From Alloascoidea africana (taxonomy: Eukaryota > Ascomycota > Alloascoideomycetes > Alloascoideales > Alloascoideaceae), in NCBI GenBank assembly GCA_030581615.1, contig JAKTTT010000060.1:1-64000 (forward strand): DNA of 64,000 nucleotides. Reading direction: 5' to 3'. The position numbers and the translations under genes are program-made. The notes beneath the pieces are model-generated. The model was not told the DNA's origin. It did no database searches and saw only the letters and a program-made list of their open reading frames with translations. Shown piece by piece: positions 12,374 to 64,000 of the stretch (position 1 is the first letter of the stretch; every line of letters starts with the position of its first letter).

Positions 12374-15300
12374 TCAGGCATAGAAATGAGTAAAAACACG
12401 AGAAGTTTCATGAACATCCATCTCCATCTTAAAATCGTTTATCTCCTGCTTGATCATTTGGGCTACAATTGGGTTCAAGCTGTTGCAGGTGGCCAGTTCA
12501 GGTCTTCGATCATAATCATCTGAATTGTAGGTATCATAAATGATAATCTTTGAAGAGAAGCTAACGGATTTGGGTGCTTCTTGGGTATATTGAGACAACT
12601 GCGATGGATATGGCGCCATGCCTGCATGTGGATAGTTATACATGGGTGGACACCCTGGAGGAAGTCCATGGTTAGAATGTTGGGAGTAAAAAGATGCCCT
12701 CTGCGGCTGATACTGTGGAGGTGCTAAAGGTTGGTGATGCAGTTGAGCAGCGGAGGGATAATGATGTTGGTTGGCAAATTCCAATTGAGAAATGGAAGAG
12801 ACTGAGCTTGATCTTCTTTTGTGATGTTGATAGAGCTGAGGTATTTGTTGTTGTTGCTGTGGTGGCATATCCATTGAACCAGACGCAGAAGATTTATGCA
12901 ATTGATGTCTATAACGCGACTTTGGTTTCTTACTAGGGGTTTGAGCTGGGCCAGAAGAAGAATCCTCGGAAGCAGAGATGGGGTTTGAAAGATTTGAGTC
13001 ATTGCTGGCATTTCTATGATCGTTTAATACCTCTTTCCTATCAATGGGTTGTTGCGATTCATTTTCCTCGGAAATTGTAGGAGTTTGGGACAGTTGCTGT
13101 TGTTCAAGCTTCAGTCTCACCAGTTGCAACGACAAATCATCGTCGGAATAATTCTTTTTTTGCAACTGCAACTGCTGTTGGGCTAAATCTTGTTGTACAG
13201 CTTGCTCTTTGTAATCGTGTGCAACCATTTCATTAAACAACTTTAGATTGTTATCCATTTTCTGGGATTGGAACTTTTCATCATCCATATCTATTGGAAC
13301 GACTTCAACTATCTCCTTATTACCAGTTTTTTTGATGCTTCGTTTTCGCTCCATTTTTTCAGGAGTTCTTTTCTTGAGGGATTTTTTACGATCAATGGAG
13401 GATTTGATTTCAAGAACGTTTGATTTTTCCATTGTGGGGAAGACGGTTTCTCCGGAAGTAATGTCTTCATCAGAATCGGTATCCTTTCTGGGCATGGGAG
13501 GCTTTAACAGATTCCTGCCATGCTGGTTAGGAGGATTAAATTCAATTGGCTTATCAAGGTCGATATCATCGTCATTTGAGTTGTTTGCAGTGGTGGTGGT
13601 GACATTAGACACAGGCTCTGGCTCTGTAGAATTGCTCACTGCGGTTTTTTCAGTGTCATGGCTATTTTTATTACTGGAATTAGAGATTGGCTCTAGGGAA
13701 CGCAACTGTTCCAATGCTCTGGACTTTTGTTGATGGGATTCTTTCCCAGCAGGTGGTAGTATGTCAGCTTCTGCTACAGCCAAGGACACGTTCAGTAAAG
13801 GTGGCTCATTTGTTCCTTCGTTCTCCAAAACTATCTTCATGTCATCTGTTTCTTCTCTATTTATCTTTGAACTGCCACCTCCCAGTCTTTTGAGTCCTGC
13901 TCCGAGTTTCTTACCCACCGAGAACAGGGAACTCCGAGAGCTGACAGAAAACTTTGAACTTACAGAGAGCTTTGAGGTTATAGACATTGTGTCCGAGGAC
14001 TTGTGTTTCCGAGTAGTCCAAGAACGAGGGGTGTAATTTGAATCTTCATCTTCCAATTGCCCTTGGACTGGAGCGGACTTGTAAAAATCTGGGGTTGAGA
14101 TGATACTTAGGCGGCGATTTTTTTTTCTTGCATCTGAAGAGGAAGAAGAAGACACGGAAGGTTTTGAGGTGGAAGTTGAGGAGGGCTGGTCTTCTTTAGA
14201 GCGTCGAGATATTGTAAAAGCTTTTCTGAGCATTGAACCTATTCCTCGTTTGGACTTTTCATGGGGTTTTGGAAATGTATTGTACCGAGGAGTTGGCATT
14301 GTTGACGAAGAGCTGGATTCGTCAGGCTGGCCAAAAGGGGAATCGAGCGGGTCATAAGTTTCTCCGGTTTCCCCATTTTGGCGACGGGCCATGTTGAGAT
14401 CTGGGCTGGCGATACCATTTGTAGGGGGATCAGAGGTCGAGTTGGAAGGGGTCTTTTTGAGTTGGGGCATATGGTATTTATTATTTTGGTCCTGGTGGTT
14501 TTGTATTTGGGGCTCTGAGCGAGGGCTGCTGGGATGAGCCGTAGGCGAAGAAGCCAGATCTGAGGAGCCCGGTAGTAAATGGGAAGAGGAGGCCGGGACG
14601 AGGGACGGGTGCTGATTCAGAAGCATCCTGGGGGTAGAGTATCTGTTTTTCGGCTTTCCGGGAGAAGAAGAGACAGAGACAGAGACAGAGACAGGGGAAG
14701 AGGAAGAGGAAGAGGAAGAGGAAGAGGAACGCGTATGGGTGGAGGAGGAGGATATGGACGGGTGTTTAGGGGTGCGCGAGCAAAAGGTCAAGGCAGTTGC
14801 AGCCGTAGCAGCAGTTGCAGCCGTGGAGGCGTTTGGCGGCGGGCGGGCGAGGGTCTGGGTCTGGTGAAGCTGGCGCTGGTGAAGCTGGTGAAGCTGGAGG
14901 GACCCGGCAGCGTCCCTGGAGCTGGGCCTGGCTCTGCGATGGGGTTCGCCGGGAGGCCTGGGAAGGCTGCCGGGGCCAGAGATGCGATCGTGCAGAGGAG
15001 GTTCCGCAGCACAGGGCGAAACAGCCACGGCCACGGCCACGGCCACGGCGGTCGAGGCGACGGCGGTCGAGGCGACGGCAGTCGAGGCGAACGAGAGGCC
15101 GACGGGGCCTTCTTCGGGCGACGGCGAGGCTCTGGTCGTGGCCGTGGTGGCAGCAGACACAATGGACGAGGCCCGCGAGTGCAGCGACGGCGAGGTCGAG
15201 GACGACGAGGACAGCGACGAGCCAGACCGCCCCAGGCCGTGGTTGCCGTTGCGCCAGGAGCCATGCCAGGAGCCATGCCAGGGGCCTCGCCAGAAGTCCC

Positions 15301-15790
15301 ACGAGCCCAGCGGGCCCCAGATGGCCCACGAGCCGGCGTGGTTGTCCGACACGCTGCGGTGGTGGAGGCTCTGGAGAGGCGGCGTGCGCTTGCTGGCCTG
15401 GTGCTCGTCCACCATCGACACGGGCCTTCTCCGGATGCCCAGTCTGGCACTGGCCACGGCAGCCTGGCGCTGGGCCTGGCGCTGGAGCTGGCCGGCCTGG
15501 CTGTTTCTGGCCCCGGGGACGGCGTATCTGGCTGGAGAAGCGACCGTCCGGGCCGTTCCTTCTCGTGAAGCAGGTCTCGCTCGTTTTCTGACGCACTGGT
15601 CTTGGCTTTGATCTTGGCCTTGGCCTTGATTTCGATCTAGATTTCGATCTTGCTTTCGATCTGGATCTTGCTTTCGATCTGGATCTTGCTTTCGATCTCG
15701 ATCTCGATCTCGATCCTGATCTCGAGGATAGCGGCAGCTGGCGTTATCCAGCGCCTGGTGTTTCATCTCCACCGCCGAACGCTGAGACAT
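12374..15790 (-). CDS. Large Ser-rich protein with Bni4/Afr1-type C-terminal PP1-docking region
   Basis: A 1138-residue protein from the first true ATG (15790); the longer frame to 15871 begins with GTG. Most of it is low-complexity Ser, Gln, Asp/Arg and Pro. The C-terminal 70 residues are ordered: KSVSFSSKIIIYDTYNSDDY, then DRRPELATCNSLNP, AQMIKQEIND and a THFYA end. KSVSF fits the RVxF docking motif for protein phosphatase 1. A conserved tail of this type is known in fungal Bni4/Afr1-like proteins, which bring Glc7 to the bud neck or mating projection. The family call rests on memory of that tail, so it is moderate. The N-terminal half is GC-rich and repeat-expanded (DRDRKQDPDRKQ, STAVA and VAVA runs). 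Confidence 0.65.
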   Translation of the reverse strand: MSQRSAVEMKHQALDNASCRYPRDQDRDRDRDRKQDPDRKQDPDRKQDRNLDRNQGQGQDQSQDQCVRKRARPASREGTARTVASPARYAVPGARNSQAGQLQRQAQRQAAVASARLGIRRRPVSMVDEHQASKRTPPLQSLHHRSVSDNHAGSWAIWGPLGSWDFWRGPWHGSWHGSWRNGNHGLGRSGSSLSSSSSTSPSLHSRASSIVSAATTATTRASPSPEEGPVGLSFASTAVASTAVASTAVAVAVAVAVSPCAAEPPLHDRISGPGSLPRPPGEPHRRARPSSRDAAGSLQLHQLHQRQLHQTQTLARPPPNASTAATAATAATALTFCSRTPKHPSISSSSTHTRSSSSSSSSSSSPVSVSVSVSSSPGKPKNRYSTPRMLLNQHPSLVPASSSHLLPGSSDLASSPTAHPSSPRSEPQIQNHQDQNNKYHMPQLKKTPSNSTSDPPTNGIASPDLNMARRQNGETGETYDPLDSPFGQPDESSSSSTMPTPRYNTFPKPHEKSKRGIGSMLRKAFTISRRSKEDQPSSTSTSKPSVSSSSSSDARKKNRRLSIISTPDFYKSAPVQGQLEDEDSNYTPRSWTTRKHKSSDTMSITSKLSVSSKFSVSSRSSLFSVGKKLGAGLKRLGGGSSKINREETDDMKIVLENEGTNEPPLLNVSLAVAEADILPPAGKESHQQKSRALEQLRSLEPISNSSNKNSHDTEKTAVSNSTEPEPVSNVTTTTANNSNDDDIDLDKPIEFNPPNQHGRNLLKPPMPRKDTDSDEDITSGETVFPTMEKSNVLEIKSSIDRKKSLKKRTPEKMERKRSIKKTGNKEIVEVVPIDMDDEKFQSQKMDNNLKLFNEMVAHDYKEQAVQQDLAQQQLQLQKKNYSDDDLSLQLVRLKLEQQQLSQTPTISEENESQQPIDRKEVLNDHRNASNDSNLSNPISASEDSSSGPAQTPSKKPKSRYRHQLHKSSASGSMDMPPQQQQQIPQLYQHHKRRSSSVSSISQLEFANQHHYPSAAQLHHQPLAPPQYQPQRASFYSQHSNHGLPPGCPPMYNYPHAGMAPYPSQLSQYTQEAPKSVSFSSKIIIYDTYNSDDYDRRPELATCNSLNPIVAQMIKQEINDFKMEMDVHETSRVFTHFYA
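14660..14720. repeat. Trinucleotide and hexanucleotide runs inside the Ser-rich gene
   Basis: AGAGAC repeats followed by GAAGAG repeats on the plus strand. They encode alternating Val-Ser and a poly-Ser run in the minus-strand protein. Confidence 0.9.
15025..15092. repeat. GC-rich minisatellite inside the Ser-rich gene
   Basis: Four GGCCAC-type hexamers are followed by three copies of a 15-bp GGCGGTCGAGGCGAC-like unit. The protein repeats are VAVAVA and STAVA. Sites like these expand by slippage, and they create long antisense frames on the plus strand. Confidence 0.85.
15640..15725. repeat. 18-bp tandem repeat encoding an Arg-Lys-Gln-Asp-Pro-Asp unit
   Basis: TTTCGATCTGGATCTTGC-like units repeat about three times beside GATCTC repeats. 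The minus-strand gene translates them as DRDRDRDR and then repeated RKQDPD near its N-terminus. Confidence 0.85.
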
Positions 15791-16743
15791 GAAAAGCGAG
15801 CGAAGCGTCCGTAGCAGCACACGGGAGAAGAGCAAGCGACCACAATCTCGAACCGGCCGGGGGAAAAACACAGAGCAGGCAGAAAACAGGCTATCCGGCT
15901 CATATAAGAACAGACCGCCAGGCTATCGATCCCTGTGTCTGCGGACCCCTTCCAGAGCTTAAATCTCGAGCACTCCAGCACTCTGTTTTTTGTTCTATTT
16001 GTGTCCGCTGTGCCCTGTCCATGGCTTCAAGAGAAAGTCTTCTACAGACACCAGCCCGGCCAGGTCCGTTTCTTCCTGTCGTGAGCCGTGCCAGACAGCC
16101 GAGGCGGCGTTCGAGACTTGCTTCACTTGCCATACTCGCGCTTCTGACACTGATACTGGTTAGAAGAGCCCCACAGCTCCCAGACCATGCCTGTTCTGGA
16201 CAGCGGCCCTGCCATGGATCAACTTCTGGACTTTCTTCCTTGACGGGCTTCTGACAGGAGCCCAAGATTAGAAAGAATCCTGAAGGGACCAGAATGCCTT
16301 CTCCATCAATTCGGCCTGGATTGCCTTGCGATCTTGCGCTCTTGCGCTCTTACGCTCGTGTTGCTTTGCTCCGTAATTAGCGCTGGCAGCCACTTTGATG
16401 TGTGTCTTCTTACTCTATCAGACCCCAGCATAAGCTCTACTGCAACTTAATCTAGCTCCCTGTTCGAATAAACAAACAAAATCCCGGTCCATTCTTCCTT
16501 TCTCGGCCTCCCAACGGCGCCTACATTCTACAATCCACTGGAAATAACACAAAAGAAAGTTGGTGTCAAACCATATTTCTATTATTATATTCGCCCTCTC
16601 GTCTCGTGTATATGGAGACTGACAAAAGAAGCAGAGCCAGAAAGCCCTAATCTATTATATACAAAATCTTTAATGACGATTAACAAAACTCTTCTCTGCT
16701 GTATACGTCACGGTAGTATAGTATAGTATATCTTCTTCCCGTC
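15791..16743. other. Intergenic, GC-rich then AT-rich
   Basis: This is the upstream region of the Ser-rich gene and the 3' flank of the DUF1279 gene. Antiparallel small frames (plus 16021-16254, minus 15900-16265) match nothing recognised and are likely due to high GC. A CRE-like TACGTCA occurs near 16706, and four GTATA repeats lie near 16713-16732 just past the DUF1279 stop. Confidence 0.5.
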
Positions 16744-17580
16744 CTAGCTCTTTCTTGGAGCCTTCTTATTTGCAGAGGAAATAACCTCTTTCACACCAGA
16801 TTTACTAAACGTCCCCTTGACTCCAACTTCCGAAATCGATCCTTTTGTAACGCTCGCAATGTTTCTGATTTTGGTATGACCAAATTTAAACCCCCACCTT
16901 CGAAGCACCTTCACGACCCAGGGCGTAATGGCAGCAGTTATGGGAATTCTGATGACAATCAAGGCCTTGTGAATTCCATATGCCACGGCAAACTCTGTCC
17001 AGAAAGTAGAGGACTTTTCCGTGTCTTTACTCTCCTCCGTCGAGCCATCTTTCTTGCCCCAACCAATCAATTCTTTCACATAGTCTTGATACTCGCGGAT
17101 CTTGTCCTGTCCAGCGCTGTGCACCAGCATGTAACAAAGAGGCAAATCTATAGCACAAAGAGCAAAATACACCCCAAGAGCAGAATACCCGTACGCCTCC
17201 AGCAGTGCCTTCAGCCCTGTTTTCTTCTTTTTGTCCCCAGCCTTGGCCGAGCCTGAATTGAGAGCCCTTCTCGACGTAGAGAACCCTCTTCTGGCCCCAG
17301 GCGCTCGGGCTACCGACTTGAGCCCTTTCAAACCCGGCCCCTTCAGTCGCGACGAGGAAAGCAAATCTCGGACAGATCCCAGAACACCTTGCGGTGGATT
17401 CCACTTGGTGGCACACAGTGGTCGACGGCCAACCATCGTCACCGCCGATCTCGCCATGCCTGGCACGAGCGAGAGACAGCGACCGGCCCGTGCCGTTCCA
17501 GAGGAGACGGCCGACGACTGCCTCAGCAGCACTCCCAGCGCCCGGAAGGGCCTGGCTCGAGAAACGACCGCAGATACCAT
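16744..17580 (-). CDS. Mitochondrial DUF1279 (FAM210-like) membrane protein
   Basis: A 278-residue protein with an ATG start. The N-terminal 100 residues are rich in Arg, Ser and Ala and almost free of acidic residues, as in a mitochondrial presequence. From about 122 a DUF1279 domain begins: LKALLEAYGYSALGVYFALC is the first membrane helix, followed by an acidic and Lys-rich linker. A second membrane region (FAVAYGIHKALIVIRIPITA) ends with PWVVKVLRRWGF. Family members include S. cerevisiae Nat2/YGR147C and animal FAM210A/B, inner-membrane proteins linked to mitochondrial translation or assembly; the exact function is unclear. It diverges from LEU5 across a 201-bp shared promoter. Confidence 0.8.
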   Translation of the reverse strand: MVSAVVSRARPFRALGVLLRQSSAVSSGTARAGRCLSLVPGMARSAVTMVGRRPLCATKWNPPQGVLGSVRDLLSSSRLKGPGLKGLKSVARAPGARRGFSTSRRALNSGSAKAGDKKKKTGLKALLEAYGYSALGVYFALCAIDLPLCYMLVHSAGQDKIREYQDYVKELIGWGKKDGSTEESKDTEKSSTFWTEFAVAYGIHKALIVIRIPITAAITPWVVKVLRRWGFKFGHTKIRNIASVTKGSISEVGVKGTFSKSGVKEVISSANKKAPRKS

Positions 17581-17781
17581 ATTCGCGAGGACTTGGAGCT
17601 GGAGCCGCTGGTGTCAATCGTCCCGGCGTCTTTCGGCCACTCCCAGCCAAACATCCGTTCGCCCGGGTCCCGATCGATCGTTTTTCGTTGCCGCATATAT
17701 AGTTCCTCCAGCTTTGATCATTTCTCCAGTCCTTCTTCTCCCCGATTCTGCCTCTGCTCCAGCTCCAGCTCCAGTGCGGCG
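17581..17781. promoter_or_regulatory. Divergent promoter between DUF1279 gene and LEU5
   Basis: 201 bp separates the two ATGs. A TATATAG box at about 17696-17702 sits about 80 bp before the LEU5 ATG at 17782, which supports that start. Both products are mitochondrial membrane proteins, so co-regulation is plausible but not shown. Confidence 0.6.
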
Positions 17782-19288
17782 ATGTGGCAGTTTTGGAGTT
17801 TAGCTTCTGGATCCACGTCTGGTTCAGGCCCCAGCGCGGGCCCCAGCGCGGGCCCCAGCTCCACCACCCCCGGCAAGCGTTCCATGGACATAAATGTGGA
17901 CTCGGGTGCGATCCACCGCCACAGGCACCAGCTGCAACTTGACGGCGATGCCGGTAGCACGAGCAGCACGAGCAGCACGGAAACGACACCAGCGTTGCGG
18001 ACAAGGACCCAGCTGGCGACCCAGCAGACGACCCAGCAGGGGCCACCTACAACTTCTGTCGGGGACTCCATCAAGGACTCTCAGACCCAGACCGCGGCTG
18101 GAGGAGCCGCCTTCGATAAGCAGTCGCTGGACTACGTGCTCAAAAGTGGGTTTGCAGGCGGGGTCGCAGGCTCCATGGTAAGTACTAAACTCCAGTAGAA
18201 GAAATAGACACCGCGGGACTAATCTTGACCTTCGTTTCTGAAAACCCCAATAGGCAAAGTCCTTGATTGCACCTCTCGACCGTGTAAAGATTCTATTCCA
18301 AACTTCAAACCCCGACTTTAAACGTTTTTCTGGCTCTTTTTGGGGTTTTGCGAGGGCCGGACGTACTATATACTCCTCTGAAGGCATCCTCGGTCTGTTC
18401 CAGGGCCACTCCGCTACCCTTCTCAGAATATTTCCTTACGCCGCCATTAAATTTGTTGCATATGAACAAATACGCGCGGTTCTGATTCCTGACAAGACCC
18501 GTGAAACAAGTATACGGCGGCTCTTATCCGGTTCTCTGAGCGGTATTGCCAGTGTATTTTGTACCTATCCTTTAGATCTAATCCGTGTCAGACTGGCCTT
18601 TGAAACAAAATCAAATTTCAAGCTGGCCGAATCGATAAAGCACCAAGATCATTATCATAAAGCAGGGCGATTGACTCAAACCGTTTGGCAAATCCTCAAT
18701 GAAACCCCCCCAGTTTCCAAATCAGAACCTTTTCTCATTCGCGTGTTCCGAAACTCTCTGCCAGATTCCCTCGCAAAAATCACAAACTTTTACAGAGGAT
18801 TCGCACCAACGATATTAGGAATGATACCTTATGCTGGCGTATCTTTCTGGACACACGACATAATCCATGATATATTCAGATCTCCGGTTTTCGCTCCTTA
18901 TACCGTCACTATACCCGAGTATTTTAGCTCAATGGAGGACATTGGCGTAAACGAAAACCGTCCCAATCAACAAAATACAAGTAACCACCACCACTCTAGC
19001 CGTGTGCCTCTAAAAGCTTGGGCTCAATTGGTTGCTGGCGGTGTCGCAGGCATGGTCTCCCAAACTGCGTCGTATCCATTCGAAGTGATACGACGTCAGA
19101 TGCAAGTTGGTGGAGTTACCAATAATGGCGAGTTTGTTGGAATCCGTCAAACGTCTGCCCGAATATTCCAAGAAAGAGGGTTAAAAGGATTCTATGTCGG
19201 ACTCACAATTGGTTACATCAAGGTGATTCCAATGGTGGCATGCTCCTTCTTCGTTTATGAGAGAATGAAGTTTTATCTGAACATCTAA
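17782..19288 (+). CDS. LEU5: Mitochondrial coenzyme A carrier Leu5, two exons
   Basis: Exons 17782-18177 and 18254-19288 flank a 76-bp intron (GTAAGT ... CCAATAG, with a GACTAAT branch-like site). The join restores GFAGGVAGSM/AKSLIAPLDRVK, the first carrier repeat. The protein has 476 residues. Carrier signatures are PLDRVKILFQ, YPLDLIRVRLAF and YPFEVIRRQMQ. Leu5-like blocks include FQGHSATLLRIFPYAAIKF and GMIPYAGVSFWTHD, plus the end VACSFFVYERMKFYLNI. Leu5 carries CoA into the mitochondrial matrix. The roughly 110 residues before the first carrier repeat are low-complexity. A second ATG at 17884 is possible, but the TATA box fits 17782. Confidence 0.95.
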
Positions 19289-32103: not shown

Positions 32104-35100
32104 TTAATTCTTTTTGGACTTGAACAGCTTCTTAATGCTAAAGCTCTTGGGCACCCGGAAGCACCAGTACAGAAACATCATTGCGAAAATGTTGAAGATG
32201 ATATAGACCCAGAAGAAGCCAAAGTTTCTCCACCTCTGGTTGAAATTGATGCCCACTGTCCGCAGGTAGTCATCGCCAACGGAGTATTTGCAGTAGGCAC
32301 AATTCGAGGTGTCATTGGGGTTCACCAGATAGCCGCTGTTTGCCTGAATGAACGAATCAGTGTACTCTGCACATGTCTGACCAGAAGGTGGGTTGAAGAG
32401 CGACAATTCCTTATCCTCGCACTCAATCTCAAAGTTGTGCAATACTGTCCCGACAAGCGCCTGGATAAAGTAAGTGAAAGGTGAAACCTTGTACATAAAA
32501 GTCCAAAATTGTGGCATCAGGTTATAGAGCTGGAAAACACCACAGAAGGAAATGGTAAAGTTGAGAAGCAGAGCGCCAATGACGGCGGCCGACGGGAGAT
32601 CGGGTGCCATGTACAAAACCATGAGACCAAAAGTTGTGTAGTATAGAACGAACATGATGGCATAAGAAAGGAAGTAGTAACCTGCGATGGTGGCACTTGT
32701 ATCAATTCGCAACGGGAAGAAGAAACAGAGATATGAGATAGCTGTACCCACAAAGTTGAACGGGATTTCTGCAATAATCTGGGACAAAATCATGATAGAC
32801 CAGTGGAAGGTATTGCTTGCACTCTCTCGGACTTCATACAACTCTCTGGCTGCAATCGCACGTTCCTGGATCTGATTCATCAGAGGAGCAGAGATGATAA
32901 GGGACATGATCACGGCAAACGACACGTTCGCGTTACCAGCAAGGGTGTTGTTAGTGTCGTAGAAGGTGAAGCCGAGGAAAAAGCCTCCAACGACCAAAAG
33001 GGCAAACTTGGAGGAGATATACACGGGGTCCCTCCACATTTGTGTCAAAGCTCTCTTGGAAACAATCAAAAGTTGGTAAAACCAGGTGGTTGCAAACTGT
33101 TTTGTCAAAGATGGATCAACATTGGCTGAAGAACTATCTGCGGCAACTCTGGAAGAAGATTCCGCTTGGATCTGTTGCACTTCTCTTGTCACTGCTGCAA
33201 ACTCGGGGGAATTGTTCCAAATGTCGCTCCAGTCCTCTGCTGTCGATGCCGTTGCGCCAGCACCGATACAGTTGAGAATATATTCCGCTGGATTCTCTAA
33301 ATCATCACATTTCGGGGCTCCGTTTCTTTCAAAATAGTCTATCAAGACTCTGGAGTGTTCGCCAATGTCACCAAAGTAAACGGTTTTGCCTCCCTTTTTC
33401 AATAGTAATAGCCTATCAAACTGCTCAAAAAGTGTAGCCGAAGGTTGGTGAATTGTGCAGAGAATTGCTTGTCCAGCTTTTGCCAACTCTTTCAAAAATT
33501 GAACAATGGCCCAGGCGCTCTGGGAATCAAGACCGGAAGTGGGTTCATCTAAAAACAAAAGCAGAGAAGGCTTTGCAACAAGTTCAACACCAATGGACAA
33601 TTTCTTTCGCTGTTCAACGTTGAGTCCGACACCGGCCTGACCAACAATTGCCTCTGCGTAAGTGCTCATTCCCAACAAGTTAATAATCTTCTCAACGTAG
33701 TCCAATTTCTCTGCAAGAGGAACATGTGCTGGCTGTCTAAGTTTTGCAGAGAACTGCAAAGACTCGCGGACCGTAAGTTCGGCAATGTGTAAATCTTGTT
33801 GTTGGACATAACCAGTACGGCGCTCGAAAGATGCATCGATGGGGAGACCATTAACGAGCATATCGCCAGTAATAACACCAAAGTGGATACGTTGGGATAG
33901 AACATTTAGCAGAGTTGTCTTACCAGCACCGGATTCGCCCATTAAAGCGGTAAGAGTTCCTGGTTTGACATAACCCTGGATGTTATCCAACAACTGTCGA
34001 GTGCCCCCATCCAAGGGAATCACATAGTCCACATTTTGCCACGAAAAAATGTCTTTGCCCTGTAAGCCTGCGCTTGCAATTGCATTTTTCAGTTCCTCTC
34101 CACTAGCGACTTTGCCCTCTGTTGAAAACTCACCACCGGCACCATTTTCGATGTCCTTTTTCCCATGCTTGTCCTGTCTTAACTCCTCAGGTAAATACCC
34201 ACGTTTGAAGATAAGTTTGTCACCTCCTCCAGCAACAGGTCTAACAAACTCGGTTGCAACGACGGAAACACCTATAAAAAAGAACCAAAATGCAAGTGTG
34301 ATGCCAAAGTTCCTCCACAAGTGGCTATACTCGTATGTGTACTGCAGAGAGAGGTACCTATCTCCTCCGACAACAGTACCTTCAGCGCCAACGTAAGCAC
34401 ATACCTGATTGTCAGTGGAGACGCCCTCGTACCCTGGTCCTGATGGTACCAGGGATCCTCCGCATTCCATTTGCCGACCGTGGAACTCGTTTGCCATAAG
34501 ATTTTCAAAAAGATAGTACAACGGGTTTAAGTAAGAAATCCATTTGAACCAGGGGTGCATGTCGGGTCTTTGAAGAACGTAGCCGGTGTAGATATTTGCA
34601 CCCAGGACAACAATTCCTGCAATTGAGTTTGCGGAAGAAACAGTACGAGACAATGCAGAGATCATCTTAAAGTAGGCGGTCATGGTGAAAGAGGACAATG
34701 AGACGAAGAGGAGGAAGAGGAAGAAAACACCAGCGCCAAGCTTCAAGTTTGTCATAAAGTAGATGATGATTGAGAAACAGACAATAGATACCATACGCAG
34801 CGGGATATCACAGAGGAAAGAAGACAGTTGTTCGGCAGCAGGATGGTAAAATATGTAGGATTTTTGTTTCAAAAGAATGGGACGCTGTTCAAAATCATTA
34901 GAAACCTGAGCCAATGCAGAAATACAAAAGTAGATGAGTGAAAAGTTGAGAACACCACCTCTTGAGTAAGCACCGAGACTGGTGTCCGATATGTCGTAAA
35001 ACAGAGAGCCAATAATCAGTGACTGAATGATTGAAGCGACTGTGTCAGTGATGACATAGGCACGATCATTTATAATCCGTTGGAACCCGCGCTTGATACA

Positions 35101-36705
35101 TAATTGAAGCTGGGCTGGGAAAGTCAAGTTGTACTTTGAGTTTTTGCGTTGACCCTTCATTTTTTCCTGGTTGGTTGACAACTTGAACTTTTCATAAGTC
35201 TCTTGGGCGTTGCACTCCTGTTGGTACTCGTTGATTTCCTTCTGGAGTGCTTGGTAATCGGCACTGCTTTTCCAGTACTCAGCAAACTCGTCTGCCGTTT
35301 TGGGGACTCTGTTTTCATAGCCGGGCCTTACGAATCTCCCGTTAGGATCCGTTACGGCGGTTAAGAACTCGGCAGTGGACTGTCTTGGAAGGCACTGGTA
35401 ACCCATCTCTTCAAAATACTGCTTTGCCCTTGTGATGGGGCCAAAGTAGACCTGTCTTCCGAGGTAGAGAACAGTGACTTTGTCAAAAGTTTCGTAAATG
35501 TTCTCACCAGCCTGGTAGATGGCCACAATCGCTACATTGTTGAGCAAGTTGGTAGAGGTACGAATGGCACGGGCGTATTCGAGAGCCGTACTGGCGTCAA
35601 GGCCTCTGGTAGCATTGTCCCAGCAGTAGATAGAAGCGCGGGCGGCTAAAGCTTCGGCAATCGAAACACGTTTTCTCTCTCCTCCAGAAACACCGCGGAC
35701 AAAGTCGTTTCCGACCTTTGTTTTGTACGTATGCCGAAGACCGAAAACAGTAGCAAGAATGTCTCTCTGGGAGGCAATAAACTCCGCGCGAGAAACATTG
35801 TCGTAACGAACATTGGGGGTTCTACATGCGATAGCAAAAGACAGCGTCTCATCGACTGTCAAATGAGGGAAATGGACGTCCACTATACATGCGCAAAGTT
35901 TTGTTAGCATGTCGGATGCCTTTCATATCAACAACCTTAAAAAAAAAATTGAAAACTTACGCTCTGGGTTGTAAATAACGTCGCCTTTAAACTCGCGAAG
36001 CATTTCCTCTTGGTTCAATCCGTCGTAGGAAATGGCCCCCTCGACTTTCTCCAATTGGTCAATCTCGCCCGCTAAACTTTTCAACATTGTGGAGCAGCCT
36101 GCACCTGGTCTGCCCAAGACCAAAAGCATCTCACCCTGCTTCAGCACGCCATCAACATCTCTAATGAGCTTTCTCACAGACTTGTTTCTGATCTGTTTGG
36201 CATTTTGGTACCAGGAAGCTGGGTTCAAATTTCTAAAAAAGTCGGCGACAGTGGGGGCAAAAGACGTGGAGGCATCGATACCCCAACTGGTAAGTCCGTT
36301 CCAGGACAGACCAGAAGACCTTGTATGGATTCCATCTCGCTCGGACTTGTTAACTATGGCGCGAAGGATGTAGTTAAAATCAAAATCTTCGGGATCAATA
36401 ACTATTGGCTGGTCTCTGGTGGTGTGAGTGGAAAGGGTTCTTGCCAGCTTTTCTAGCTTTTGTAACGCATCTCCGTCGGGCTTTGTTACGATCCGTACCA
36501 ACTCGTCGCCATCTCTGTCGAACTCAAGGTTGTCATTAGCGCGTGATGTTATATGGGATAAAGAGTGGATAGAGTTGTTTGTTTGAAGTCTATGCAAAGC
36601 AGCTCCACCGTCTTTCTCTGGATTGTAGGTTTCGGGACTGGAATTGTCATCGCTTTCCTCCGAGCCTGAGCGGAAATGTGAGCGAAGATTATTACTGGAG
36701 CTCAT
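32104..36705 (-). CDS. PDR-type ABC multidrug transporter of the Snq2/Pdr12 subgroup, two exons
   Basis: Exons 36705-35961 and 35882-32104 flank a 78-bp intron (GTAAGT, GCTAAC branch, TATAG) and give 1507 residues, the usual PDR length. The order is NBD1-TMD1-NBD2-TMD2. NBD1 has GRPGAGCST and RGVSGGERKRVSIAEALAA, followed by YCWDNATRGLDASTALEYA, wording typical of Snq2/Pdr12 rather than Pdr5. NBD2 has GESGAGKTTLLNVLSQR and FLDEPTSGLDSQSAW. Such plasma-membrane pumps export xenobiotics or weak acids. The intron falls between VIYNPE and LDVHFPHLTV. ATG 36705 was preferred over 36882 because a TATA stretch at 36804-36816 lies between them. Confidence 0.95.
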
Positions 36706-38020
36706 GCCGATGGGGGGGTATTTAGCAATTCGACAAAGAGACAAGTGAACAGGAGGCGAAGAAAAGGTCTGAGATATGGGAAGACTAACCAGAGGAAGAT
36801 GGACATATATATATACTCGCACGGCGGAACCCGTCGTCTGGCCCGAAACGGAAAGCGCCCAAAAAGCTTTTTTCGGAGGCATTTTTCAGGTTCGAAGGGC
36901 AGGGCATTTCCACCAATCGGAGGAGGCGCAGGGCGCGCACACCCGAGAGCAGAAGGGGCGGACTTTGGCAGGTGGGCGGACCCTTTTTTCATTCGCTTTG
37001 GTCGCTTCGTTCGCTTCGCAGAGCCCAAACTCTGTTGGCCTTGCCCTCGGTCTTTGCGTCTGGGCTGAGCAAAAAGCTTTAAGCATAAACGGAGAAGGTT
37101 GGCTCTCTGCAGTCAATATCAGCAATATGGATTGTTGATGTAAAACTCTTGACACTCTTCAACATCGCCAACGTCGCCTCTTCTCCTCAACCTTGCCGGT
37201 CGGATTCTGAAGCGAGAAAGAGCCCAGAGAGCTGGTGCGCTTGTGGTTCCAAATGCACTGGTGCCTAGCCTATTTTCTATTTTCGCCCGATATTTCCTTC
37301 CGAACGGAAACTCAGGAAACTCGGGCTAGCTTGCCCCAAAAAGCATGTGGAACTAACCCTAATCGGGCCGGGAAGAGGAATGCTAGTGCCATCTCCAGCA
37401 CCCTTAATCTGCCCGTTATCAGGCTCAATATATGGTGCTCACCGTGCAGAGTCAATTGGACCGTCTTCTCAACGCAGAATCGGCGAGCTCTTTAGCGTGC
37501 GAGGTGCGTCTAGCGCTCTTAGCCCTCGCTTAGAACCGCTGTTAGCTGGCGGTGGCTTCAAAGGACTAGCACTGTCATCATCACCCACCAGTGCTTCATT
37601 CCCGCAATAACCACCAATTAGCGTACTTTTGAATCCAGGCAACGGAAACCACAACGCAAAAGCACATTATAATTGCACCTGCTCCGTGATGTGAACCCTT
37701 TTCGTTTCATGGATAATTGCATCGGCGGTGCCGGATCAAAATTAAATCCAAAACGCCACAAGGCTCATTGTTGGCTGACAAACCCGGAGATATCTGGCCT
37801 TATCCGCGATATGTCCTCCAAGCTGGCGTGTTCGTATTCGTATTCGTACCTGGACTTTTTCAGCCCTTTCGTCCCGTGAATCTTGGCCCTGGGGGTCGGG
37901 ACCCAGATGTACTTAGCAGAAGCATTTTGCGCGTAACACGTGGCACAGGGCTCGCCTGGGGTCTTTGATCGCACGCACCACCTCATACTCACCTTCTTCG
38001 TGGGTTCTCTTGAGAACAGA
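36706..38020. other. Divergent intergenic region, ABC transporter and VPS23 promoters
   Basis: 1.3 kb. A TATA stretch (ATATATATATA) at 36804-36816 serves the ABC transporter. The interval 36890-37080 is GC-rich. A CCGAACGG site (everted CGG triplets) near 37298 could bind a zinc-cluster regulator of the type that controls PDR pumps, but no canonical PDRE (TCCGCGGA) was seen. TATTCG repeats lie at about 37829-37846. Frames here show no domains. Confidence 0.5.
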
Positions 38021-52870: not shown

Positions 52871-53825
52871 ATGAAGCTCCGAATTCATCTTACAAGAACT
52901 GACGTCTTGAAAAGTAAGCCATTTTGTGCACCGTCGTTATGAAGGTCTGTACTTCTTATTAACCAGGTTTCTAGCCTCGCTTACTGTTATCCTGGCACTT
53001 CGGAAAACATGTCTTCTACGCTTTCAGCCATCCAAATTGGCAATCATCTCGATGGAGATTGGCGAGCCGCAGGTCTGGTGTGATATTGAGACCTCTACGC
53101 TTTTTGATCAGTATGAATTTCAAACTCGGAGAGATCGGATAACGATGGAAGTAAATCTGGAAAATCTGGTTTCGATTCTAAAGTTTTTTGAGAAATCCAA
53201 TGCGAATGAATTGCTTATCCAGCTTGTGCGACCCAGTTCAGCGTATCAATTGAACATTCAGTACAAGGAGCAACAGGCTAACGGAACACTAAGATCAAGT
53301 CGATTTTGGGTTCCTGTGCAACTTCTTCCAAAAGATGCCGATGATAGCATCGAGGAACCTGCTATAGGGCAGGCCGATATGATTGTGAAGCTACCGGAGA
53401 AAATTGGGTCGTTGTTCAAGCGGGTCGAAAGATACAAGAACAAGCGGAATGACGTCCTTCTATTGACTACTACGTCGGATGGCAACTTATCACTTAGCTT
53501 AGAAAGTGAAGCACGTAAAGTTAGCGTCAGTTTAAGGATGAACTTGCAAGTAGAAATGTTTGACGAAAGAGGAGGAGACGACTCGGAAGCAACCGAAAAT
53601 TCAATCGACGAAAGAGAAGAGCAGAAGAAGAGGGAAGAAGATAAGGTCACAAATGTTCTGATCAAAGTCAAAGATTGGCGATACTCAATGAAGCTTTGCG
53701 AAGTTACGAAAAACGCCGTTGCCATTATATCCAATCAAGAGATGTTGGTGGTACACTGCTTTTTGGATGATGAACAGACTGGTCAAATTATATGTTGTAT
53801 CGGAGCCGTGGCGCAATCTTATTGA
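52871..53825 (+). CDS. HUS1: 9-1-1 checkpoint clamp subunit Hus1/Mec3, two exons
   Basis: Exons 52871-52913 and 52975-53825 give 297 residues. Exon 1 encodes MKLRIHLTRTDVLK, the Hus1 start. The 61-bp intron has GTAAGC and a TATTAAC branch; the CAG 4 nt after the branch A is too close and out of frame, and the next AG (TTTCTAG) restores frame. Downstream blocks are LRKTCLLRFQPSKL, QVWCDIE, VNLENLVSILKFF, DGNLSLSLE and the C-terminal MLVVHCFLDD, as in PCNA-like Hus1. A charged insertion (about residues 205-225) lies before the last strands. With Rad9 (Ddc1) and Rad1 (Rad17) it forms the damage checkpoint clamp. S. cerevisiae calls it MEC3. Confidence 0.85.
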
Positions 53826-58374: not shown

Positions 58375-59043
58375 ATGATTGCCGGAACACCTCTGAAAGG
58401 AGTATTTGGGCTTTTGATTTTTGTCTTCTTTTTCCTGGTAGTATTGTTCAAAGAGGTTTTGCCATCTCGGTACGTTTTTGATCCAGTGGAGCTTCAACGA
58501 ATAAGCCGGAATGCTTTGGAGCGTAATCGCAACAATGATACGTTGAGCGTTTTTCTGGACATCACAGCTGGCCTGAAGGAGCGCTATGGCGATCGATTGA
58601 TTAACGATTACAGCGAAGAGCGCTGGGTCTTCAACAATGCTGGTGGCGCCATGGGTTCAATGATTATTTTGCATGCCTCAGTCACCGAGTATTTGATCTT
58701 TTTTGGAACCGCAGTTGGCAGCGAAGGACATACGGGTGCTCATTTTGCAGACGACTATTTCATCATCCTCCAAGGCCAGGAGCACGCATACTGCCCCGGC
58801 AAGCTCAAACCTGAGATCTACCTACCGGGAGACTGCCATCATTTGAAGGCCGGGACTGTAAAGCAGTATAAAATGGTTCAAGAGTCGTGGGCGTTGGAAT
58901 TGGCCCAGGGGTGGATTCCTGCGATGCTACCGTTTGGGTTCTTGGATACTTTCACTAGCACATTGGATTTTTACACCTTGGGGAAAACGGTCATATTGAC
59001 TGGTTGGGACATGTGCAAGAACTTGCGCTATGGAAAATTTTGA
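58375..59043 (+). CDS. ERG2: Sterol C-8 isomerase Erg2
   Basis: A 222-residue protein; the frame extends to a TTG at 58357, but ATG 58375 starts the conserved N-terminus. One N-terminal membrane helix (GVFGLLIFVFFFLVVLF) is followed by YVFDP, NNAGGAMGSM, EGHTGAHFADDYFIIL and GQEHAYCPG, and then WIPAMLPFGFLDT near the end. These are Erg2/sigma-1-receptor family blocks. Erg2 moves the double bond from C8 to C7 in ergosterol synthesis in the ER and is the morpholine target. Length is typical. Confidence 0.95.
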   Translation: MIAGTPLKGVFGLLIFVFFFLVVLFKEVLPSRYVFDPVELQRISRNALERNRNNDTLSVFLDITAGLKERYGDRLINDYSEERWVFNNAGGAMGSMIILHASVTEYLIFFGTAVGSEGHTGAHFADDYFIILQGQEHAYCPGKLKPEIYLPGDCHHLKAGTVKQYKMVQESWALELAQGWIPAMLPFGFLDTFTSTLDFYTLGKTVILTGWDMCKNLRYGKF

Positions 59044-59212: not shown

Positions 59213-60532
59213 TTATACAACGATTTCTACAATATAGTCCAGCCGAATCTGCTCGTCTTTAAAGACAATCAGTTCATCATTGTGCACGCCACTAACTCTC
59301 GCTTTTGCCCAGTAGGAATCATAGCCCGCTGGCGGTTTTTCAGAGGTGGGGCCAGTTGGTGTAAAAGCATTTCCCATGGCCACATTTGCCAAAAACAAGT
59401 AGATTTTGGTATTTGTTACTTGACTCGCAGACCAATATAGTTGGTCGCAATACTGCAAGCTTTTTGAAGATTTATTGGCAAAATACAGTCCTGCACCAAA
59501 CATTGCACCCGTAATGGCACCTGGCGACTGCGAGGGCATGAGCAGCCCTTTCCCAAGGATGGACAGAATGTTTCCAACGCTGGTTCCGTGCCATAGCTGC
59601 TGGACGTTTTTAATCTTTGAACTGCACTTACGAAAAGGACTCTGCTGCGAATTCAACTTGATCCTATAGATGTTTTTCACCCTTGACTTGAAAATCTTCG
59701 GACCGTGATGATCCATTTTGGTATCTTCATAGTACTTTGTGATCTTATTGATTGTTCGCTTGTCTGTGCAATGCTTGATCTCAACATTAAATACCTTTTC
59801 TTTTTCCTTCTGTTTGGAATTATTTTTCTCCTCCTCCTCTCGCCTCTTGTCCAAATCCTCGATCAGTTTCAAAGTGTCGTAAAGTGCGTTACAAATGTTC
59901 ATCTGTTTGTCGTAGTTCTCCTGGCTGAATATAAGATATGCTTTATCCCGAGCAGACTTGACCTTGTTTGGTATAATAAAAAAGTATTCGTTGTTGAGCA
60001 AGAAAAGCTGGCTTTCGTTTTTGTCCGGATCATCCAGTAAAGGCTTTATCTGCTTTAAGATCTCAACTGCCTGGTTTATGCCCATCTTGCTAACAACCCC
60101 CAACGGAGTTTTAAAGATGCCCTCGCTTGCATCATATTCGATATCTGTGTCACTGGTGATAATGTGGATATTCTGTTGCGCAATTTCAGTGACCAGAGTC
60201 TTGCTAGCGTCGTCCATATATTTGATCTGTTCTAGTGCCATTTCAACAACTCCGCTGGGATTGGTTTTCTCACTTGAAAGCTTGGTAGAGACAATTTTAC
60301 CTCCGCTTTCTAAAGTGGCCTTCAGCATCGCTTCGCGATAGCCCTTCCTAATCTTTTGCATGTACAAGGAGTTGTACTGAGATCTCCCTCCTTGTTTCTT
60401 GATGATCCTTCCCTTTGAACCCACTCTCCCATAGCGGATGGAAACCTCTTCCTTGTTCAGGTGCAACTCGTAAAACTTATTGTTGTTCTCATTGGTATCG
60501 AACTTGATCAGCATTGCCTTCTCTTCAGACAT
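59213..60532 (-). CDS. Poly(ADP-ribose) polymerase with WGR domain
   Basis: A 439-residue protein with an ATG start. Residues of about 5-85 form a WGR domain (VSIRYGRVGSKGRI, QKIRKGYREA). About 95-235 is the helical PARP regulatory domain (KTPLGVVSKMGINQAVEIL). A Lys/Glu-rich linker follows. The catalytic domain has LWHGTSVGNILSI (His315), GAMFGAGLYFANKSSKS (Tyr350) and NDELIVF (Glu420). The full H-Y-E triad predicts poly-ADP-ribose transfer from NAD. The layout is that of PARP2/PARP3. No N-terminal zinc fingers or BRCT domain are present. PARPs are absent from S. cerevisiae and S. pombe, so this is unusual for a budding yeast. It is convergent with ERG2 (169 bp between stops). Confidence 0.95.
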   Translation of the reverse strand: MSEEKAMLIKFDTNENNNKFYELHLNKEEVSIRYGRVGSKGRIIKKQGGRSQYNSLYMQKIRKGYREAMLKATLESGGKIVSTKLSSEKTNPSGVVEMALEQIKYMDDASKTLVTEIAQQNIHIITSDTDIEYDASEGIFKTPLGVVSKMGINQAVEILKQIKPLLDDPDKNESQLFLLNNEYFFIIPNKVKSARDKAYLIFSQENYDKQMNICNALYDTLKLIEDLDKRREEEEKNNSKQKEKEKVFNVEIKHCTDKRTINKITKYYEDTKMDHHGPKIFKSRVKNIYRIKLNSQQSPFRKCSSKIKNVQQLWHGTSVGNILSILGKGLLMPSQSPGAITGAMFGAGLYFANKSSKSLQYCDQLYWSASQVTNTKIYLFLANVAMGNAFTPTGPTSEKPPAGYDSYWAKARVSGVHNDELIVFKDEQIRLDYIVEIVV

Positions 60533-62075
60533 GGCGCCGGTTTCCTGTTTGGAAAATAAGGAGTATTCTGTTCTGTAGTGTGTTTGTCCAGATGAATCTC
60601 AATCTTTGTGGTTTAAATACCATAGGGGAGCGTTTGGAATGCGGAGCATGTTTGGTGTGTTGACGACTGCTTTCGAGTCAAAGTTACTGGTCAGGGGGCG
60701 CCTCGTCGTATTTGTTGATGTGCATGTTATTAGAAAGTTGGTGGGCCAGTTAAGAGCCATCCTCCATACTAGTCAGACATATGGCCAGGATGCTTTGCCA
60801 GCAGATTCGCATATTTTTTAAAGCCATGTGTGCTGGAAATGTCCATAAACAGCGCCAAGGGAGCATTTCTGCCTAAATTGGAGTCGTCCATTGGGCATGG
60901 GCAGTCAAGTCTAGGATGAGCCTAGGAGCCCTGTTGCCAGCCCTGTATGACGAATGGGGAGTCATTAGCAGTAAAAATAACCAAACTAGAGAACTGAAAC
61001 GCTTAACAAGAAGTACGGTCGTTGAAAAACCGAATTGATGATGGGAGTGCTGATCTGGGGCTGATCAGATTTCTGTCATGAAGAGTCTGAATGGTGCCAG
61101 ACACCTGATGAACGATATTATTCATGTATGCTGAGAGATAGAGACAGAATAATTTCCGAGCTTGGATGTTAAGGGCAGCTGTTTATTCTTCTGTTTCTTT
61201 TTTAGCTGAGTAGAGTGTAACGTTTGGCCACCTTCTACAACTCTTCAATATTCAGCATTTGTTTAAAAAAAACTAAAAAGCCACTAGTCGATATTAGTCT
61301 CACCGGAATCATTTCCTGTACATATCTGGGCGTTATGTCTTGGCTTTCCCCAAGTTCCCTAGCGCCGAATAGTCGCTGTCGTCTTTCTTGATAAGCCTTC
61401 ACATTGTCGCCTTTCCTGAACTCATCGACGACTTTTTGATTCAGTAGATTTGGGGCATTCTGTACAGTAAAATTTTCTCTTTGCCACATCCTTGTGTCCT
61501 CGATCCTGCGACGTTTATATAGAATGTCAATTGCCAGACAAAGTGATTTGTTTTCATCACATCAATTATCCCAAGCAAGAGACTGTGCTTCTTTGGAAGT
61601 CTAGTTAATAGCATTATAAATTGGTGTTGGAGAGCTGCTTTGATGTAGGGAGATTTTGATCTTTATTGTGAACAGATTTAGATCGAGCTTGGATAGCAGC
61701 TGTAAAGCCAATTAGACACAAGATCAAGCCCTCTTGCGGGCTTCAATTGCCAACCTTCAGTATTTGTCCTTTTCTTGTCCATGGATATAGCATATCAATC
61801 CTAAACCCTACTAAGAGCGGTAGTGGGATTAGCCCCACCATTTTTAATAGGTTTGGTAGTACAAGGACTTGGTAAATTGCGCTTTGTATATCGCTTTCCA
61901 GAGCTTCTGGCACGAGCAGGAGATTGACCATGTCCTCAACAACAGAGAGTCTGGGAAAAACTTTTCAATATAAAAGATTTATAATTTTACTTGAGCTCTT
62001 TCTTCTACTGATGCCAACTTTTTCAAATTATAATGACCAGATTGATGGTTATTCTGCAATATACGATATAGCAAA
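60533..62075. other. Region downstream of the Harbinger-type transposase
   Basis: 1.5 kb. Just upstream of the PARP start lies its promoter. The minus-strand frame 61489-61235 (ATG; WQRENFTVQNAPNLL ... QDITPRYVQEMIP) looks protein-like and follows a TATATAAACG box on the same strand, but has no recognised family. The frame 61931-61743 is weaker. One of these might be the accessory ORF of a Harbinger element. Confidence 0.4.
61235..61489 (-). CDS. Hypothetical 84-residue ORF
   Basis: Hydrophilic N-terminal two-thirds (QKVVDEFRKGDNVKAYQERR, GESQDITPRYVQE). The end may be intron read-through, since GTGAGA follows EMIP. A TATATAAACG box lies about 30 bp upstream of the ATG. It lies in the same orientation as the Harbinger-type transposase to its right. 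Unrecognised. Confidence 0.3.
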   Translation of the reverse strand: MWQRENFTVQNAPNLLNQKVVDEFRKGDNVKAYQERRQRLFGARELGESQDITPRYVQEMIPVRLISTSGFLVFFKQMLNIEEL

Positions 62076-63300
62076 TCAACTTTTTAACAATGGATCAAAA
62101 ATATAATCCTCCAAATTCGGCGCAGATACACGAAACTCGTTTGAGACACGGTTTGGACTGCAACAATTCAGCAAATTAGACAGCATAACGAGGACAAGGT
62201 AACTTTTATCAGTTGAGTTTTTTCGATAGTATTCCATCTCTCTCCAATTAGCGTTGATGAAATCAAATAAATGCTCCACAGAAACCCTAACAGTTTTCAA
62301 GGAATCATTGACCTCTATCAGATCTGGGGTATCTGGCCTTTGAGGAAAAGGCGAAGCAAACACATCGGAATTTTCATATCCAGAATTGCCATAAATGATG
62401 TACTGCGTATCATGGACATTAAATTTTTGCCGTACTTTTCCCTCGATCTCACTAGATAAACACAAACTTTGGTCATGTCTTGGTCCCTCGGTAGGGCCAA
62501 AGCAGTCTAAGATTATTCAGCTAGGCATTACCAAAGCTTATATTTTCAGCACTCAATGACGCTGGGAGTATCTGTCAGAAACAAATCTTTAAGAAAATCG
62601 GAAAGCAATAACTTGCCTTATGACCCGTGATGAGAGTTCTGATCCTCGGGTCACACTCTATGTGACGCATTGATCTATCAATGAATCCAACAACAATGGG
62701 TACTAGGCCATCATTGTGTGCAATTGACCGTTCATAAGTCCTGAGCATGGGTGGGGTGTATAGATTTGGATGGGACTCTAACTTCAGTAGAAGCTTGTAG
62801 TGATCATAGATGTAATTCAACGTTGCTGAATAGATATGGCTCATAGCAGAGTGACTACGCCCAAATAAACCCATGCTATCGAGCCACCTGACTGAAGCGC
62901 GCAATCTCCTCTTACTGGCGGTTAATGAAAGAGAAGGAACTTTTTCTGAAGAGCAAATGCTTTACTGCAAAAGTATACATAGTGCCTCGACTGCATCGAC
63001 CTTGTACACGAAGCGAGGCCTAGTAATATCATCAGGAATATTGAGTGAACGAGCCAACTCTTTAATATTTTCTTTATCAATACAAAAATTTCTCCTGGTA
63101 GTCGCATCATCCATTTGGCCCAGGTTGAAAGCAACATCTGGAACGATTGGATTGGTATCTATAGGTCTGCTAGAACATATTTCCATATTAATTATCAAGC
63201 ATACCATTAAATACACGGAAAGTATAATAAGCTCTTCGATCTGGATAATTGTCACTGCTATTTCTTCGTTGTCGTCTTCATCTTCATCTTCCGTCTTCAT
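62076..63300 (-). pseudogene. Broken PIF/Harbinger-type (DDE_Tnp_4) transposase
   Basis: Three minus-strand frames follow one another. At 63300-62962 comes an N-terminal part ending PRFVYKVDAVEALCILLQ. At 62904-62575 comes FGRSHSAMSHIYSATLNYI, then VPIVVGFIDRSMRHI, matching the first Asp motif (usually FVDGT.R.I), followed by a divergent RTLITGHKASYCF where GHKRYHC is usual. At 62465-62076 comes DTQYIIYGNSGYENSDVF, the second motif with Asp replaced by Asn (YGDSGY), then VRVSVEHLFDFI, the Glu motif, and ENSDVFASPF and SNEFRVSAP nearby. Segments between the frames are lost or shifted. Terminal inverted repeats were not found. Confidence 0.75.
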
Positions 63301-64000
63301 CCTCTTCTTCCTTATTTTCTAGGTCAACAGTATTCGTGTATTCCTCTCTCTGTGCCTGCCATATTTAAGGTTTAGGGTTTTGGTGTGAGGTTTATAACTG
63401 CTAAGGTTCGAAGGATAAAGACAGAAATAAGGGCAAAGGTTGTAGATCTACGCATGCTCTTTGCAAAACGTTCGCAAAACTCCCCAGTTTAGTTTGTATG
63501 CCGAATCTCATCGCGCAAGCGAAGTTTTGTTGCGTTTATGCCAGTTTCTTAAAAAAGTATACAAAAGTGTTGCACATGTGCAAAAAAGGACCTAGTCACA
63601 AAATGCCTTCTTTATGCCCAATTGTTTTTTGGACAACACCAGTTCAATTTTATAGCCACACATCCACTGTGTTTGGTTAAAAAAGTCGGTGTCCTTATTT
63701 AAAGGATAGTCAAAATTTGTATTATTGTTGGATGCTCAAATAGATATTTGGTCAGTGTCACGGGGAATGGAACGTTGGCCGGCTCAAGGAACGTTGAAAC
63801 TCCGGAGATTTTTCATGTTGTCGCGAGATCCGATCTTTTTATCCATCGATAAAAGTCTGACACACTTAAGATTGCACCTAGATTTTTCTTTGAACTGACT
63901 CCAGCGTTTGGGGATTCTGAGAAAACTGCTCTAAGGTTTTTGATCTCTTTTTGCCTTAAATAACACTAGCACATTGATGAAACTGGAAAAGGAAAAGTTT
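63301..64000. other. Right end, no gene supported
   Basis: About 700 bp, AT-rich, with only short frames. An ATG near 63977 opens a frame to the window edge but is too short to judge. Confidence 0.5.

Follow-up and report, generated by a model that had tools for sequence, protein, structure and literature searches.

A compact WGR-PARP in a budding yeast, possibly acquired from a phage-rich gene pool separately from the PARP of Yarrowia

When eukaryotes that do without poly(ADP-ribose) are discussed, yeasts are the usual example. The PARP1, PARP2 and PARP3 enzymes share a WGR domain that binds breaks, a helical domain that first holds the catalytic domain in check and later lets it go, and a His-Tyr-Glu (H-Y-E) triad that supports polymer formation. 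A passage of PMC4245714 states that yeasts have no PARP, and the same source, in part, holds that eukaryotic PARPs never occur without a macrodomain hydrolase. The PARP of Yarrowia lipolytica was described as a retained Clade 1 PARP, with losses elsewhere, in a passage of PMC2964712; its gene, YALI0C17061g, was up 2.07-fold in a telomerase-RNA-deleted strain, according to part of PMC6746865. Thus, a PARP in a budding yeast is not new in itself, and the original prediction, which had presented such a gene as a surprise, was right about its presence and not about its novelty. Phage-to-eukaryote transfers of ADP-ribosyltransferases have been proposed, with phage PARPs mentioned, in passages of PMC9503650 and PMC7824862. 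No title or abstract opening among the matches listed from the open-licence literature joined yeast PARPs to phage PARPs.

The gene described here lies in a window of 64,000 nucleotides (the whole stretch of DNA that was analysed), which is part of a 138,154-base contig in a genome of 23.18 Mb and 138 contigs. Its features and those of its surroundings are as follows:

59213..60532, minus strand: PARP gene, a single uninterrupted open reading frame (ORF) of 439 aa (ORF and Pfam)
60329..60520, minus strand: WGR domain, residues 5-68, motif RYGRVG (Pfam and sequence)
59822..60154, minus strand: PARP regulatory (helical) domain (PRD), residues 127-237 (Pfam)
59216..59791, minus strand: ART catalytic domain, residues 248-439 (Pfam)
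59588-59590, minus strand: catalytic His315 (alignment)
59483-59485, minus strand: catalytic Tyr350 (alignment)
59273-59275, minus strand: catalytic Glu420 (alignment)
58375..59043, plus strand: ERG2 (C-8 sterol isomerase), convergent neighbour of the PARP gene (Pfam)
53052..53825, plus strand: HUS1 checkpoint gene (Pfam)
61227..63310, no strand assigned: transposon-derived patch upstream of the PARP gene (genome repeat search)
62076-62465, minus strand: DDE_Tnp_4-like fragment within the transposon patch (Pfam, 21.7 bits, below the cut-off of 24.8)

The gene was confirmed to encode an intact protein with WGR, PARP-regulatory and PARP-catalytic domains, all three above their Pfam cut-offs (the catalytic domain with 95.4 bits against 26.7), as expected from the PARP2/3-like layout that had been predicted. 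The predicted H315-Y350-E420 triad is likewise complete; it is invariant in all 40 rows of alignment A1, the window included, and the ORF also carries the remaining A1-invariant columns. Tyr replaces Trp in the WGR motif, and the family consensus likewise reads Tyr-Gly-Arg (RYGRVG). Pfam found neither a BRCT domain nor a zinc finger in the protein, whose WGR domain starts already at residue 5, and NCBIfam gave 0 matches for the window PARP and for the phage PARP. No second PF00644 match was found in the 23.2-Mb genome, and genome-wide searches gave a single match each for PARP and WGR and two for Ku. The predicted fold was also shown to agree with the PARP assignment. The enzyme is probably an active, compact ADP-ribosyltransferase of the WGR-PRD-PARP kind. 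Its activity, activation by DNA breaks, targets and localisation are what we infer from the parts present: the WGR domain would dock on broken DNA, the grip of the helical regulatory domain on the catalytic domain would be lost, and His315, Tyr350 and Glu420 would pass ADP-ribose from NAD+ to neighbouring proteins and to the enzyme's own chain, a modification that may report DNA damage in the yeast.

Enzymes that would remove such a modification were searched for in the same genome, as had been proposed along with the gene. Six-frame searches of the assembly, which may be incomplete, gave 0 matches for Macro, ADP-ribosyl-GH (ARH) and NADAR. These families were found in 8, 5 and 3 of the 14 control genomes respectively, none of the positive genomes being fungal. 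Both Pfam models for PARG gave 0 matches in this genome and equally 0 in the 14 control genomes, a result that does not show PARG to be absent. If the absence of erasers is true, this yeast would be an exception to the macrodomain rule as stated in part of PMC4245714.

The PARP gene was said to lie among ordinary yeast genes adjoining ERG2, and its neighbours, the 138-kb contig and its host-like codon usage bear this out. Genes for a CNT nucleoside transporter, for HUS1 and for a protein with an MSB1 domain follow at greater distance on the ERG2 side. HUS1 had been judged to give no functional link to the PARP, and nothing beyond distance was seen. The transposon patch on the other side is decayed; its pieces gave 43 genome matches including itself, with the 42 other places at 64-88% identity. 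Past the patch lies a 1030-aa gene of the Sec23/Sec24 family. Synonymous codon usage of the PARP gene scored -1.113 per codon, within the range of 14 window genes (-1.10 to -1.31), and scored worse (-1.270) under the usage of seven genes from one Klebsiella phage, as did all 14 window genes. Any transfer was therefore not recent. Elsewhere in the window, reverse transcriptase and gag-type aspartic protease ORFs lie side by side as retroelement pieces at 3060-4768 (minus strand), and a PDR/CDR-type ABC transporter at 32104-36882 (minus strand) is present as two same-strand ORFs, 12 bases apart. GC content peaks at 14001-18000 (53-59%, against 37-50% elsewhere in the window); a 1138-aa ORF with no Pfam match, at 12374-15790 (minus strand), lies in or beside that stretch.

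A database search with the window PARP gave 323 matches, of which the best 120 were inspected. The best match, P0001, is a 437-aa protein with 57% identity over 98%, followed by the metagenomic proteins P0002-P0015 (428-442 aa, 49-54% identity). The list went on with Yarrowia PARPs (54-58% identity over 60-67%), and then with proteins from Coemansia, Smittium, Dipsacomyces and Hesseltinella (42-45% identity) and one from Vibrio harveyi (36%). No names of filamentous ascomycetes or basidiomycetes appeared in the best 120 of the 323 matches, although most of the 120 were nameless. Three Klebsiella phages of the Stephanstirmvirinae, FBKp34, KP13-16 and 05F01, encode proteins with 49.9, 49.7 and 48.3% identity respectively over 100% of the query. 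Altogether, the phage search returned 17 records, six with at least 80% coverage, and the megaplasmid search 19 records, of which 17 reached at least 80% coverage. The megaplasmid proteins are less close to the window PARP, as are those of 35 IMG/VR loci and 53 bacterial loci, some of which matched in the catalytic part only. The sequences place the window PARP in a family that is common to large tailed phages, bacteria and megaplasmids. WGR-PARPs were seen to recur on plasmids of 300 kb to 1.2 Mb in Pseudomonas, Variovorax, Vibrio, Paenibacillus and others; every one of the 19 records is typed as non-mobilizable.

The phage family PHROG 23333 matched residues 5-437 of the window PARP with 178 bits; this match is not specific, as Yarrowia P0019 also reached 186 bits, over two stretches. 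Among solved PARP sequences the best was 1efy, with 73.7 bits against the window PARP, and human PARP2 and PARP1 scored 148 and 146 bits against the family profile. Single-protein queries with P0008 and P0003 found no closer IMG/VR phages, and an IMG/VR search with alignment A2 found four loci with 32-42% identity to P0008. Phage searches with P0018 and with Yarrowia P0019 gave the same phage groups. The second-ranked hit of the viral fold search was Bodo saltans virus, which is a giant virus of a protist and not a phage. The three Klebsiella phage genomes (L090, L091, L092) are complete, and in all three the PARP gene lies near anaerobic ribonucleotide reductase genes, a possible clue to its role in the phage. 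Two loci belong to the sister clade of the crown clade defined below: the IMG/VR contig L002, which has RIIB and DNA-polymerase matches, and L037, where the gene is found on a piece of a Sulfurovum chromosome that also has AcrB-family and SurE genes. P0008, P0009, P0015 and P0130 are encoded on 123-145-kb contigs, a length that would suit phage genomes (137-147 kb) but is no proof.

Raw identity does not place either the Klebsiella phages or Yarrowia clearly closer to the window PARP. Against the Klebsiella phages, identity was 42-43% in the WGR domain and linker, 48-49% in the regulatory domain and 57-58% in the catalytic domain; against Yarrowia, the respective values were 46-48, 45-46 and 60-61%. 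The segment after residue 165 measures 43-201 residues in all 15 Yarrowia/Coemansia-type rows (11 with fungal names, four nameless), 12 residues in the window PARP and in P0001, and 11-22 residues in all 48 remaining rows. This trait separates the two fungal types; on its own it does not join the window PARP to the phages, since the short form could be the ancestral one. The nuclear-localisation motif K[KR]x[KR] was rejected as a discriminating trait, being missing from the window PARP and mixed among the phage-type rows.

The host was placed by means of ERG2, in a tree of 34 rows (33 of 120 listed matches and the window). The window grouped with P0185 (99/95), with 68% identity between their ERG2 proteins, then with Trichomonascus ciferrii and one further row (96/82), and then with Yarrowia and Nadsonia (98/87). 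The NCBI taxonomy assigns all three named genera to the Dipodascales and gives T. ciferrii the name Blastobotrys ciferrii; therefore, judged by this one gene, the host most likely groups in the same order with Trichomonascus and Yarrowia.

The PARP proteins gave a different picture. A quick tree of 106 rows was built from 69 of 184 PARP-search proteins, 15 of 35 IMG/VR loci, 14 of 53 bacterial loci, five of 17 phage records, the window and two human PARP1/2 pieces as root. Window and P0001 (100) fell inside a crown clade with other fungi and phage-type rows. Outside the crown were bacteria (14 loci and Vibrio harveyi), 15 IMG/VR contigs, two further phages and nameless rows, with XacN1, Stenotrophomonas RAS14, Variovorax, Pseudomonas and Vibrio rows branching there; apart from the human root, no named eukaryote lay outside the crown of this tree, which is partly a matter of sampling, as the rows outside came mainly from prokaryote and virus collections. 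Crown trees were then made with 49, 47 and 65 rows (the last including eight further proteins), together with a 51-row tree in which 14 rows, mostly near-duplicates, were dropped and the insert columns removed. P0071, P0124, P0138, the long rows P0070 and P0149 and others were left out of the crown trees, and the trees were made without filamentous-fungal or protist Clade 1 PARPs.

Window and P0001 were paired in every crown tree (100/99), and the Yarrowia, Coemansia, Smittium, Hesseltinella and Trichomonascus rows formed one clade every time (100/99 or 100/100). The window pair was joined to phage-type rows with 92/79 in the 49-row tree and 83/52 in the 51-row tree with the insert removed. 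The 65-row tree gave no resolved branch for the pair, and the root within the crown was likewise without resolution. Nesting of the pair inside the phage-type rows was looked for in the crown trees, and no such resolution was obtained. Only three of the 34 phage-type crown rows in the 65-row tree are named phages, and the other 31 are nameless metagenomic proteins that could include eukaryotes. The AU test rejected window, P0001 and Yarrowia as one clade (p 2.9e-5 and 8.6e-4, 47 rows), and rejected the same clade with Trichomonascus added (p 2.6e-6, 49 rows), but did not reject a single PARP clade of all fungi (p 0.171, 0.217 and 0.38 with 49, 47 and 51 rows); these p-values are weakened because the groups were chosen with the first tree already in view. 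An alignment error near the Yarrowia insert was discarded as a cause, since the clade was still rejected after the insert columns were removed (p 8.2e-4, 51 rows). The PARP of P0123 (Trichomonascus vanleenenianus, 5,052-base contig) grouped with Kickxellomycotina and Hesseltinella and not with Yarrowia; the first part of the WGR domain is missing from its gene model. The cause may be hidden paralogy, a gene that moved from one fungus to another, contamination or an imperfect gene model.

On this evidence, the window PARP and the Yarrowia PARP do not appear to be sister genes. The original prediction had left two routes, an ancestral gene that was kept or a gene gained by transfer, and had proposed a phylogeny of the catalytic domain. 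The trees put the window PARP in the crown with fungi and phage-type rows; simple retention lost ground through the AU rejection, and transfer was favoured. Not having descended together with the Yarrowia PARP, the gene was probably acquired sideways rather than simply kept. Its yeast neighbours, host-like codon usage and status as sole copy in the genome do fit simple vertical inheritance of a single Clade 1 PARP within the yeast order. Against this, the AU test rejected a clade with Yarrowia under the model used, the insert trait disagrees, and the phage proteins are about as close as those of other fungi while ERG2 places the host with Yarrowia; such descent is very improbable. Least credible is a contaminating or non-functional sequence. 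The transposon patch directly upstream and the nameless state of its closest relative might suggest one, but ERG2 on one side and the Sec23/Sec24-family gene on the other, within one long contig, and a host codon usage make contamination very unlikely, and it was ruled out on these grounds; the intact ORF with its triad and A1-invariant columns argues against a non-functional gene.

The reading that we favour, at an even balance of belief, is that the window gene would encode a DNA-break-activated ADP-ribosyltransferase that came into the yeast lineage from a gene pool rich in phages, apart from the PARP of Yarrowia. Entry would have been horizontal, from a pool of phages, bacteria and megaplasmids, and independent of the Yarrowia and Coemansia/Smittium/Hesseltinella PARPs; we infer how many transfers took place and in which direction. 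One ancient acquisition by fungi, or an ancestral presence in them, deserves real weight, although we consider it somewhat unlikely. The window and Yarrowia/Coemansia lineages would then be old paralogues, or would have moved between fungi, and most yeasts would have lost both. The single fungal clade survives the AU test, the P0123 grouping makes inter-fungal movement or hidden paralogy seem to occur, and the Yarrowia PARP was read as retained in the passage of PMC2964712. However, the best trees put window and P0001 with phage-type rows or leave them without resolution, the genome has a single PARP, many losses would be required, and the compact regulatory domain is common to window and phage proteins. 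The opposite direction, with fungi as the source of the crown clade and relatives of Klebsiella phage FBKp34 taking the gene from a fungus, is improbable. It would draw on the lack of resolution of the root inside the crown and on a passage of PMC4245714 in which viral PARPs were probably gained from hosts, but the named rows outside the crown are bacterial, IMG/VR and phage (partly through sampling), and contact of bacterial viruses with fungi is hard in either direction.

Tentatively, the favoured entry from a phage-rich pool may be extended to two captures of a bacteriophage-type PARP in one yeast order, with that of Yarrowia, hitherto taken for the last remnant of an ancestral enzyme of fungi, being phage-type too and the window lineage having kept the compact form. 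With no detectable macrodomain, ARH or NADAR eraser in this yeast, ADP-ribosylation might be one-way or otherwise reversed. If yeast PARPs are phage-type and were acquired more than once, the story of loss changes. These yeasts would then serve as natural experiments on how a eukaryotic cell integrates a phage-type PARP when it has no recognisable set of erasers, and as a concrete case for ADP-ribosyltransferases moving between phages and eukaryotes, a view found in passages of PMC9503650 and PMC7824862.

Among known systems, human PARP1, PARP2 and PARP3 (Clade 1) have 20-25% identity to the window PARP in structural alignments. Their WGR Trp is Tyr in the window PARP, and the stretch before the catalytic Glu reads PPxGYDSYWAK, where PARP1 has LPKGKHSV. 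The PrpA/NPO type of filamentous fungi (Clade 1E) carries a BRCT domain N-terminal to WGR, according to part of PMC2964712, unlike the window PARP. The WGR-PARPs of the jumbo phage XacN1 of Xanthomonas (BBA65562.1) and those of Vibrio, Pseudomonas and Variovorax megaplasmids cover 98-100% of the query with 29-32% identity. The PARPs of Yarrowia sp. C11 and B02 have the same domain order and come from the same order of yeasts by ERG2, but are 591-631 aa long with a 165-201-residue regulatory segment, and group with Coemansia, Smittium and Hesseltinella, apart from the window PARP. P0001, the sister of the window PARP in the trees, has the same short loop and is presumed to come from a sister yeast. 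The PARPs of the Klebsiella phages vB_KpM_FBKp34, KP13-16 and 05F01 (QQV91759.1, UYL04435.1 and BBK09217.1) are encoded in phages, where their role is presumably host takeover. They have 426-429 aa against 439 in the window PARP and a regulatory loop of 15 residues against 12, with the same three domains in the same order, and their start, MSEEKAMLI, can be aligned with the MSESKMLI of the yeast protein.
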